Below, piece by piece: positions 13,247-18,179 of a stretch of DNA of 64,000 nt (its first letter is position 1; each line of letters begins with the position of its first letter). This stretch comes from a bacterium (GTDB lineage Bacteria > Patescibacteria > JAEDAM01 > Absconditabacterales > Absconditicoccaceae): assembly GCA_017453665.1 (NCBI GenBank), contig JAFTEM010000021.1, positions 1 to 64,000 of the forward strand. Reading direction: 5' to 3'. Below the pieces are notes generated by a model. That model worked only from the letters and a program-made list of their open reading frames with translations. It searched no databases and was not told the origin of the DNA. A program made the translations under genes and the position numbers.

Positions 13247-14356
13247 TTATCTTAAATATCCTTTATTAATAAGCTCTCTCTTGATATATGCAGGATCATT
13301 TGCAGCTTCTAATGCTTGTTCAAGAGAGATTTTCTTCTCTTCAAATAATTGAATAAGGCTCTCTTCCATAACCTGCATTCCTCATGAGACTCTATTTGTA
13401 TACATAATACTCTTTAATTGATTTAATTTGTTTTCTCTAATAATATTTGTTACTGCTGTTGTATTTAAAAGTACTTCTTGTCCTAATACAAGTCCTGGCT
13501 TATCGATTCTTTTTAAGAGCTTTTGAACAACGATTGCTGCCATATTTTCTGCTAATTGTGTTCTAATATGACTTTGTTCTTCTGATGGGAATGAACCGAT
13601 AATTTTATTCAATGCTTGTTCTGAAGATCTTGCATGGACTGTTGTTAATACCAAGTGTCCTGTTTCTGATAACAAGATCGCATTTCTAATACCTTCTAGA
13701 TCTCTTATCTCTCAGAAGAGAATTACATCAGGTCTTTGTCTTAAAGCGTATTTCATTGCGTTAGAGAATGATGATACATCTTTTCCTAACTCTTTTTGAT
13801 CGATAATACTTTCTTTTGGTTCGAAGATATATTCGATAGGGTCTTCAATTGTAAGAATATGTTTCTTTTTATTCATATTAATTTCCTCAATTACGGCTGC
13901 TAATGTTGTTGATTTTCCAGAACCTGTTGGTCAAGCTAGGAAAACAATACCGTTTTCTCTATATGCTAATTGTTTGAAGATTGGAGGAAGATTTAATGCC
14001 TCTAATGTTGGGATCGTATTTCTTAGAAGTCTTGATACAATCATGATATGACCTCTTTGTCTTGAAATATTTACCCTATATCTTCTTTCTTTATATCATA
14101 CTCAAAGGTCCAGACTTCCGTGTTTTTCAAAATAATCTAGCCCTGTTTTATTCATCAAAGCAAGTGCTATTTTATTTAGCATAGTATCATCTAATTTTGG
14201 AAGATCTGTTTGCCTATTTACTTCCTCCATAATTCTTAAGGTTGGAGGCTCATTATAGGTTAAGTACATATCTGTAGCGTTTTTTTCAAGCATAAGCTCG
14301 TTAAGGAAAGCTACGTACTTCTTTGGATCTTTTACGTATTCATCATATTTTTCCAT
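13247..14356 (-). CDS. pilT: Type IV pilus retraction ATPase PilT
   Basis: 369 residues, typical for PilT. Family features include Walker [11 protein letters not shown] (about residues 145-154), an Asp box, Walker B VILFGEIRD and the His box [11 protein letters not shown]. The [13 protein letters not shown] region is also conserved. The enzyme hydrolyses ATP to disassemble and retract type IV pili at the inner membrane, giving twitching, adhesion or DNA uptake. No pilB or pilC is adjacent; CPR genomes scatter pilus genes. The gene stands alone between the convergent pheT and the divergent lepA-like gene. Confidence 0.93.
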
Positions 14357-14502
14357 TTTTGTTTAGAGAAATGAATAAAAAGTATTCACAGATAATTTTA
14401 ATTAAATCTTATAAATTTGCAAATTTTTAGGAAGTGTAAAATCTTGAAAATCAAAAGCAATTCCTTAGGTTTAGTTTGTTTTTATATTACGATGAGCTTG
14501 GC

Positions 14503-15948
14503 ATGGATACCCCTTCAAGAGCACTTATTTTTGATTCTGTTTTTGATCCATATAAAGGAGTACTCGCCTATGTAAAAGTGGTTGATGGTTTTTTTAGTGC
14601 TTGAGAAGAAGTTTATCTTGTTCATTCAGAAAAGTCTTTTCAGCCAACAGAAGTTGGACATTTTACTCCTGAATACCATGCTGATAAAGTACTTGAAGAA
14701 GGACAGATTTGATATATTGTTACTGGAGAAAAATCTGTTAGAGATGTTCAAATTTGAGATACGATTATAAAAACAAAAGTTTGAAAACTAGAAGAAACGA
14801 ATAAATTTAACCAGTTCCTTATCCCCGGATTTAGAAAAGTAACACCATATGTTTATGCTTGAGTTTATCCTATTGATTCGACAGAATATGATAAACTCAA
14901 AGATAGTCTTGAGAAACTATCTCTTAATGATAGTGCTGTAACCTATGAGATGGAAGATTCTAAAGCTTTATGATTAGGATTTCGTTGTTGATTTTTAGGG
15001 ATGCTCCATATGGATATTATTAAGGAAAGACTATTTCGTGAATATCATCTTGATACGATTTTCACGATTCCTACAGTGATGTATTTAGTAAAATCCAAAA
15101 ATCTTTCTATTCCACTCATTAAGACAGGAATGAATTTAAAAGGATTAATTCAAACCTGACTCTATCATGAAATATTAAAGAAAGTATGATATGAACTAAG
15201 TGATGATGAAATAGCCACGCTTGAACATGCCGAATGAATTTTTTGAACGATGCTTGAGAATCCTCGTTTTACTAAACTAGGAGAAATATTGAGACCGTGG
15301 ATTGTTGTAAAGTCTTGATCTGACATGATTGATCAAGGAATGATTGATGAGATTCTAGAACCTATTGCTAATGTTGAAATCGTTGGTCCGGAAGAATTTG
15401 CTTGAAACATTATGGCTTTATGTCAGGAATATAGAGGAAAACTTAAGCATATGGAATATCTTGATGCTACAAGAGTTGTTTGGCATTATGAGCTTCCTAT
15501 GTGAGAAATCATTGTTGATTTCTATGATAGACTCAAATCCTCTACTAAAGGATATGCTACTATGAATTATGAATTTAAATGTTATCAAGCTGATGACTTA
15601 GTTAAGTTAGATATTTTTATTAATAATGAGAAAGTCGAAGCTCTAACTTGGGTTGTTCATAATGATAAAGCATATTATTTATGACGTGAAATTGTTGAAA
15701 AATTGAAAACACTTATTCCTAAGCATTTATTTGTTATTCCACTTCAAGCTGGACTTTGAAATAAAATTATTGCACGTGAGAATATTGCTGCCGTTAAGAA
15801 AGATGTGTTAGCAAAATGTTATTGATGAGATGTTAGTAGGAAAAGAAAACTCCTTCAAAAACAAAAAGAAGGAAAGAAAAGAATGAAAGCTATCGGTAAT
15901 GTAGAAGTTCCTACTGATACTTTTGTTAAATTAATTTCTAGAGAGTAA
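14503..15948 (+). CDS. lepA: LepA/EF4-like protein lacking the GTPase domain
   Basis: 481 residues. The sequence aligns with LepA only from domain II onward. It opens with [20 protein letters not shown] and continues through [35 protein letters not shown] and [19 protein letters not shown]. It ends with the diagnostic C-terminal domain ([21 protein letters not shown]). The roughly 180-residue N-terminal G domain is absent. Upstream in the same frame a TAA at 14437 and no ATG exclude a longer product, and only 146 bp separate it from pilT. It also carries an extra segment of about 50-60 residues after domain III, around residues 215-275. EF4 normally uses GTP to promote back-translocation. This form could bind ribosomes only in another way or with a separate G protein. 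It lies 5 bp before an rRNA pseudouridine synthase gene. Confidence 0.9.
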
Positions 15949-15953
15949 ACAAA

Positions 15954-16631
15954 ATGCAAAGATTAGATAAATATTTAGCGAACTTAGGATTAGTTAGTAG
16001 AAGAGAAGCTCCTTTACTCTGTAAGAAAGGAGAAATTTTAGTTAATGGGGATGCTATTAAAAAAGCTGATTATAAACTTCTTTGAGGAGAAGTCATTTCT
16101 CTTCATGGACAAGAAATAAAAGTTATTGAGCAAGTATATGCTATTTTATATAAATCTGCTTGATATATTTCTTCTGATGAAGATGAGTTCTGATATCCTA
16201 GCTATAAAAAACAGATGCTTGATTGTCCTTATGTTAATCTTTTGCATGTTGCTGGAAGATTGGATGTTGATACTGAAGGGTTACTTTTACTTTCTAATGA
16301 TGGGCAATTTATTCATCAAGTTATCTCTCCTAAATGGGATAAAGAGAAAGAATATGAAGTTTGGCTAGAAAAGGAGGTAGCAATTGATGAATGTAAACAA
16401 TTAGAGGAATGAGTTGTTTTAGATGATGGATATAAAACAAAACCTGCTAAAGTAGAAAAAATTGAAGATAAAAAAATCCTTTTAACTATTACTGAGGGGA
16501 AATACCATCAAGTTAAAAGGATGTTAGAAGCTATTAATAATAAGGTTATTTATCTCAAGAGATTAAGGATTGGAGATTGGACTTTGGAGGGGCTTAATCC
16601 TTGAGAATGGAAGTTGGTTGAGAAATTCTAA
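15954..16631 (+). CDS. RsuA/RluB/RluE-family pseudouridine synthase
   Basis: 225 residues. An N-terminal S4 domain (QRLDKYLANLGLVSRREA, then GEILVNG) is followed by the catalytic domain. The RsuA-type catalytic motif is GRLDVDTEGLLLLSNDG, with its Asp, and the C-terminal block is TEGKYHQVKRMLEAI. It modifies a single uridine in 16S or 23S rRNA; the target cannot be assigned. It starts 5 bp after the lepA-like gene, so the two are probably co-transcribed ribosome-related genes. Its stop lies 3 bp from the convergent gene's stop. Confidence 0.92.
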
Positions 16632-16634
16632 AGA

Positions 16635-18179
16635 TTATGCCAATGAATTAATATAAACAGGATTTTGAATAATTCATATTATTGCATCTTTTATTTTTTC
16701 TTTTAAAACATCTTCATTTAAATTATTATTATCATCAATTAAATCCTTTGCTTCTAATTTTAAAGCTGGATTTTTTGTATAAATTAACAAATCTCTTATT
16801 GCATAGTTACTCCAAGAGTTTATATTTAGAACTAATCAAATATTTTCACCATCTGCGGCAGTTCATCCCAATGAAATTCACTTTGAAGATCACCAAGTTC
16901 AGAATTGTCAAGTACCTTCTATTCAGAAAAAATTTCTAACCCTTGCTTTATCCATATCATTATCAAATTCTGAAAGATCTCATGAGAAAATATCATTAAA
17001 TTCATATCTTTTCGTTTTAATAATATCTGCTCATTTTACAGCCTTTTCTTTTACTTTTATTTTATTTATAGCATTTTCTACTGCAATTTTTATAAACTCA
17101 TGATTATAGTTTTTATCAGAATTCATACATTTGCTTAATGGAATTTTCTCTTCAAAATTTGTTCAGTTCTTCTTAATGACAATATCATTTCCAGATAAGG
17201 TAGGTGTATATTCACTTCCTAGCAATTCATTTGTATCGGTTTTTAATGCATCCAAAATGCCATTTTTTACACTCATATCGATATTACCAACAAAATCTGG
17301 AGTATTTAATAATACCTGTTCTTGATTTTGATCGCTATCAGGATCCGTCTCTTTCTCTTTTAATGCATAATTATTTGTATATGGGACCCTATATTCATAC
17401 TTAGATTCTTCAGCGTCTAAATCATCCCAGAGGCGCTTTACCTCATCCTTTCCACCATTTTTAAAAGCTTCCATTGTTTCTTGTGATATGTATTTCAATT
17501 TTAAAACGTCTTCAACCGTCATATTAGGTATATTTTCTGCTTCAACCTTTCATCACTCTACCCAACTTCTTAATCATGCCAATGCCCTTCTTGTTTGATT
17601 TCCTAGAATTTTATCTTCTTTAATTTCACGAAGTTTATTAGCCTCTGATTCTGCTCCATATCAATTTCCTGCTTGGATTGTAGCTAAATTAGAAGTCTTT
17701 TGTATAAGATAGGCCAATGGTGATTCTTTTGGCGATGAAATTAATATTTTTAGTGCTTCTTCATACTTTTTATCATCTCATTCTGGAATTTCTGCTACTT
17801 TTAAACTCCACTTATTTTCGTCTTGATTTACATATTTTCAAAATAAAGTTGCTATTTCCATAACAGAGATTTCTCCAGTTCACATTTTAATTTTTACATC
17901 TTTTAATGCGTATTTTAATGCTTCATTTTTCTGTTTTTCATCAAGACTGTTAAGTTTCCCATCTTTTCAAAATAGTGCATCAATAGCTGAGAATTGAGCT
18001 TCCTTATTATCGTTCATAATATCTACTTGTAATGCAAGGTTTCCTAATTCAGACTTCATTGTTGCATCAAGAACTTCTGCACTTCAATCAGCAGGAGCTT
18101 CTGGTGTGTCTTCAGTTCATCAATCGCGAGATTCTGGGTTTCACTCCCCTTCTAATAGCATTTTTCGTTCATTAAGCAT
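16635..18179 (-). CDS. Hypothetical acidic protein
   Basis: 514 residues under code 25, mostly helical, acidic and Lys/Glu/Asn/Asp-rich. No signal peptide or membrane segment is seen. An internal stretch (KILGNQTRRALAGLRSWV, about residues 200-218) vaguely recalls the DxxT-x2-AL motif of peptidoglycan-binding repeats, but the support is thin. A C-terminal region contains several Gly-Thr turns. It follows a 73-residue gene by 24 bp, probably in one transcript. I do not recognise a function. Confidence 0.7.

Follow-up and report, generated by a model that had tools for sequence, protein, structure and literature searches.

Translational GTPases are understood as single chains, in which the other domains receive the nucleotide state of the G domain by mechanical coupling. 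LepA/EF4 (TIGR01393), whose function is still debated, is normally one such chain, and the paralogous factors EF-G and BipA/TypA share its G-II-III-V architecture. According to the accessible parts of the respective studies, LepA is near universal (PMC1780047), lepA is present in over 80% of CPR genomes (PMC12641178, in whose accessible main text the word "split" does not occur), and in Escherichia coli both the active-site histidine, judged by the failure of the H81A variant, and the C-terminal domain (CTD) are needed for complementation (PMC4245954). Genes likewise interrupted at domain boundaries are described for the Nanoarchaeota, a host-dependent lineage with small genomes, where split protein genes are regarded as derived characters tied to that lifestyle and where, in the accessible part of the account, no translation factor is named among them (PMC3655853). 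Those splits belong to another domain of life and to other proteins, whereas the present case is a single gene in which the same break has recurred. No published description of a split LepA, or of any other split translational GTPase, was found in a search of the open-access literature.

The LepA considered here departs from the one-chain norm in being encoded, in relatives of the window, as two chains by two genes. The window chain is without a G domain and keeps domains II and V and the CTD, with a candidate domain III, in the order known from LepA/EF4, and the G half found in its relatives has a LepA-type G domain.

A LepA gene that begins at domain II

The window, that is, the whole 64-kb stretch of DNA that was analysed, was read with the SR1/Gracilibacteria code (table 25, TGA = Gly). 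Its LepA C half lies on the forward strand at 14503..15948 and comprises 481 amino acids plus the stop. Along the 490-residue frame, Pfam recognizes domain II (PF03144, 14557..14766, residues 28-97) at 36.3 bits, domain V (PF00679, EFG_C, 15349..15606, residues 292-377) at 78.3 bits, both above their cut-offs, and the LepA-specific CTD (PF06421, 15619..15936, residues 382-487) at 152.8 bits for a cut-off of 29.7. Domain III (PF14492, 14845..15060, residues 124-195) scores 19.9 bits, below the cut-off of 27, as does a fused control protein, P0072, at 19.6 bits. The protein has no Pfam match to the G domain (PF00009), and its score against the NCBIfam lepA model TIGR01393, 524.8 bits, falls 9 short of the cut-off of 533.9, for which the missing domain may account. 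The first-pass annotation had described a match running from domain II to an intact, ribosome-contacting tail, with no G domain, and the profiles bear this out. Nor was a LepA-type G domain found anywhere in the 64 kb with a LepA G-domain query (best E 2.2).

The surroundings, too, are as that annotation had them. An in-frame TAA at 14437..14439, read in the sequence, excludes an attached N-terminal G domain; there is no in-frame ATG upstream of 14503; and 146 bp separate the gene from the start (14356) of the divergent pilT, a PilT/PilU ATPase gene at 13247..14356 on the reverse strand that is no part of LepA. The frame is open under code 25 from 14476 to 15948, with the ATG at 14503 as the likely start, because the proteins of two close relatives, G001 and G002, begin at the same point of the alignment (MENISRALIFD and METISRALIFD), and a TTG at 14476 as the alternative. 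Directly downstream, at 15954..16631 on the forward strand, follows a 16S rRNA pseudouridine synthase of the RsuA type. A promoter scan around the LepA gene gave no excess over shuffled sequence (15 versus 12.3 hits). The pseudouridine synthase is adjoined in turn by a gene on the reverse strand (16635-18179) for a 514-residue protein without any Pfam match.

Free G halves in related genomes

Among the best 120 of 7998 scored homologues of the window protein, PF00009 is missing from 48 and present in 72; 44 of those without it measure 461-510 residues. A count by motif gives 52 G-less proteins in the same 120, including four with a PF00009 match. Full-length relatives reach about 70% identity, so that one lineage contains LepA both with and without the G domain; one-chain LepA of other phyla is up to 45-52% identical to the window C half. 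A LepA without its G domain is thus neither a chance product nor a lone assembly error.

The close relatives G001 and G002, 93 and 96% identical to the window protein, carry the G half as a separate gene of 191-192 codons, on a contig other than that of the C half. A LepA-type G domain was found in all 17 searched genomes with relatives; in 16 of them the match has 71-87% identity and covers most of the query, and in G011 it covers only part; the frames show it fused in some of these genomes and closed by its own stop in others. In the whole order of G002, 43 of 49 genomes match LepA_C and 43 of 49 the G domain. The first-pass annotation had suggested looking in relatives for LepA lengths and a free G domain, and had remarked in passing that a separate G protein might exist. 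Such a protein is indeed present: 16 of the 49 genomes have both halves together as separate ORFs, each with its own start and stop (G001, G002, G003, G005, G008, G010, G011, G015, G016, G017, G027, G037, G044, G045, G046 and G048). A fused gene is found in 25, counting one with a frame break (G023), two whose gene runs off the contig end (G035, G049) and one with two contigs (G024), and neither half in five. The remaining three stay unassigned, G029 having a G half with no LepA_C match, G031 a C piece at a contig end with no G match, and G039 fragments. The split genomes contain no additional full-length lepA, as each has one full LepA_C match, barring weak or fragmentary second matches in G011 and G017.

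The free G protein is about 177-205 residues long, and 113 of 120 listed matches in a protein search with one such half are without the motif that starts domain II. The break falls in the linker between the G domain and domain II: free G halves stop 4 or 17-23 residues past the last G helix, and the linker after that helix measures 11-48 residues in 23 fused rows. The halves share a contig in six of the 16 split genomes and lie on different contigs in the other ten. In G010 and G048 they are separated by one small ORF on the opposite strand, and in G011 by several ORFs, one resembling by eye that of G048. A nitroreductase-like gene lies between them in G037, where Pfam was run, and in G016, in which the C half is inverted. 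In G045 the distance is about 6 kb, with pilT among the genes there.

Some LepA genes of these genomes carry inserted domains. The two copies in G024 (L197, L198) have linkers of 174 and 194 residues owing to an in-frame, endonuclease-like DUF559 domain (PF04480, Pfam on P0033), at the linker that is split in other lineages, and such in-frame inserts may show how the linker originated as a breakable site. A PDDEXK_3 nuclease domain (PF13366) stands in frame between domains II and III in the C half of G016 (L173:3516-5432), as well as in the fused proteins P0072 and P0107. In G001, G002 and G029 (L177, L178, L187) the free G half directly follows a radical-SAM/UPF0004 gene, presumably rimO, for the S12 methylthiotransferase.

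Repeated changes between split and fused LepA

A careful tree of the C part, with 46 rows (16 split genomes plus the window, 24 fused and five outgroup rows), requires five changes between the split and the fused state, at least four of them forced by well-supported branches. The window falls into an 11-row split clade with support of 100/100. Sisters of opposite state occur elsewhere, as G010 (split) with G007 (fused), and G011 plus G048 (split) with G049 (fused); long branches, including that of G027, leave some placements unsure. A single origin of the split was tried on the C-half data and rejected, one split clade costing 236.6 log-likelihood units (AU p = 1.5e-5). With fused outgroups, repeated fission is the plain reading, the direction of change not being settled, since mixtures of fission and re-fusion are equally costly on some resolutions. 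Separate fissions are favoured because the genomes in which the halves lie near each other have different genes between them.

The survey was extended beyond the order. In the wider class, 12 short frames among the listed of 309 matches were examined, and none was shown to be split: five are one frame of 632-690 residues, four run off a contig end, one has a frame break on one contig and two are contig fragments. In a sample of the phylum, 133 of 145 genomes match LepA_C; leaving aside G002, which uses code 25, 121 LepA frames have at least 562 residues and 11 are shorter. Among these 11, the two halves are encoded apart in G381, G398 and G455. In G428 the G half stands by itself and the C half shows a frame break close to its beginning, and G415 appears to encode LepA in three ORFs on three contigs (L241 for G, L246 for II-III and L234 for V-CTD). 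In G454, outside the order, the C half is present and a search for the G half found none. Four further frames are cut by contig ends (G476, G358, G404, G470) and that of G403 is interrupted by unread bases.

The attached G domain is absent from all five LepA_C-bearing genomes (G381, G398, G415, G428, G454) of the six examined in a second patescibacterial class. All 120 listed matches to the C half of G398 are without PF00009, 118 of them 395-440 residues long, on contigs of up to 1.27 Mb. A 51-row tree with these additions, with eight near-copies left out and one outgroup not readable, needs seven changes, six of them forced. Because the second-class genomes are read with table 11, the split is not tied to the recoding of TGA. 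The arrangement in G455, where an ORF6N-domain gene and a gene resembling by eye phosphoglycerate mutase lie between the halves (L235:1468-3061), could be a recent split.

EF-G and BipA in the genomes of the order are one chain in most matches, unlike the split LepA. BipA was matched in 43 of 49 genomes at 1e-100, with 39 of the 43 spanning the profile in one frame; of the four partial matches, two start at the first base of a contig, one is from G017, where two contigs each carry a piece, and the fourth is from G026. EF-G was matched in 47 of 49 genomes and is full length in 40; four of its seven partial matches start within three bases of a contig start, and the rest are from G017, G024 and G038. 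As far as tested, the split thus appears peculiar to LepA among these factors, the partial EF-G and BipA matches being explained only in part.

Constraint on the two halves and how they may work

Five G-domain motif patterns, AHIDHGKST, RGITI, DTPGH, NKIDLP and SG-KTG, were searched for in the free G halves; all five are intact in 16 of 17, the 17th (G011) being partly masked. Ratios of dN/dS were computed for 16 pairs, some with one half only, and are rough values, as dS is often above 1, near saturation, and infinite in a few. Split pairs with finite dS give 0.013-0.104 and fused pairs 0.029-0.084, and the window C half gives 0.036 against G001 and G002. Distances between G halves follow those between C halves in 15 split genomes (G011 dropped; r = 0.89), in the window clade (r = 0.86) and in 24 fused genomes (r = 0.84), with none of 5000 permutations as high in any case. 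With rows G011, G017, G035 and G049 left out, split rows deviate from the columns invariant in fused LepA at 4 of 75 positions (G) and 5 of 99 (C), and fused hold-out controls average 4.2% and 9.9%, respectively. Judged from these alignments, both halves are under purifying selection like that on fused LepA, with no excess breakage of invariant sites. The best PDB matches of single-chain models of the C half (mean pLDDT 74.3, pTM 0.52) and of the G half (78.9 and 0.79) are LepA/EF4 entries (9a76, 3jce, 5j8b, 3cb4; 2ywf). The C-half model reaches a TM-score of 0.46 at best, so that its domain arrangement is not reliably predicted.

We regard it as likely that the window gene encodes the larger subunit of a recurrently fissioned, two-subunit LepA/EF4, whose halves reassemble non-covalently and whose partner G protein would, by the example of its relatives, be encoded elsewhere in the genome. 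Non-covalent reassembly is the simplest mechanism because the G half is intact and equally constrained. The fission would have occurred in the linker that connects the G domain with domain II, leaving two genes. After translation, the halves would bind each other by the conserved interface that holds the G domain against domains II-V when LepA is one piece. Like LepA, the heterodimer would engage the ribosome or an intermediate of 30S assembly. The ribosome would stimulate the G half to hydrolyse GTP, and the CTD would be carried into the tRNA site by the C half. The association of the halves, their GTPase activity and the function of the pair are all predicted from sequence.

The first-pass annotation had proposed a ribosome-binding factor without GTPase activity. 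A C half acting alone and independently of GTP, with the free G domain employed in another job, would suit the window protein, with its intact ribosome-facing CTD and no G domain, as well as G454 with its C half only. This is nevertheless improbable, because each of the 16 split genomes of the order also has a free, intact and strongly selected LepA-type G domain, both halves keep the invariant sites of fused LepA, their distances are correlated and, in the accessible part of that study, E. coli LepA needs both its GTPase, H81A failing to complement, and its CTD (PMC4245954). A related possibility, which we consider quite improbable, is that the halves also work apart, with a G subunit that is shared or exchanged, and that fission was a new control point, not a neutral break. 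It would fit the repeated changes of state and the location of the halves on different contigs or at a distance, hence not in one operon, in much of the window clade, but selection and invariant sites resemble those of ordinary LepA.

Genes that are broken and then rejoined by trans-spliced introns or split inteins are known in other organisms. Either device would give back a one-chain LepA before it acts. However, Rfam searches of the window and of 15 loci carrying halves gave only tRNAs and no intron at the gathering score, and G halves that stop 4-23 residues past the last G helix, together with C halves that begin at domain II, leave no room for intein parts, making rejoining very improbable. 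An assembly artefact or a decaying gene in the window is conceivable, the genomes being metagenome bins, some of them with genes affected by contig ends or frame breaks (G023, G031, G039, G428), but the chance is minimal: independent contigs and assemblies agree, so that the error deleting the G domain against which the first-pass annotation had warned did not occur, the G-less form recurs among the best homologues, and the dN/dS of the window C half against G001 and G002 is 0.036.

A bolder proposal may be put forward tentatively, as a possibility that we hold to be rather doubtful. LepA would be a translational GTPase that can do without a covalent link to its G domain; on at least two occasions in Patescibacteria, and several times in one order, the factor would have become a two-subunit, once a three-piece, machine. 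Its free G subunit would load onto a ribosome-bound effector subunit, fire there and perhaps depart again, providing a control point absent from one-chain factors.

A natural, conserved and recurrent two-chain LepA would directly test the need for a covalent link in the coupling of the G domain to the other domains, and its halves would serve as ready-made split constructs. LepA may also be miscounted in small genomes, as annotation pipelines label the halves "hypothetical protein" or "GTP-binding protein". For instance, in an SR1 bacterium at NCBI that has both halves, DLD55_01080 and DLD55_00315 are each annotated as hypothetical protein.
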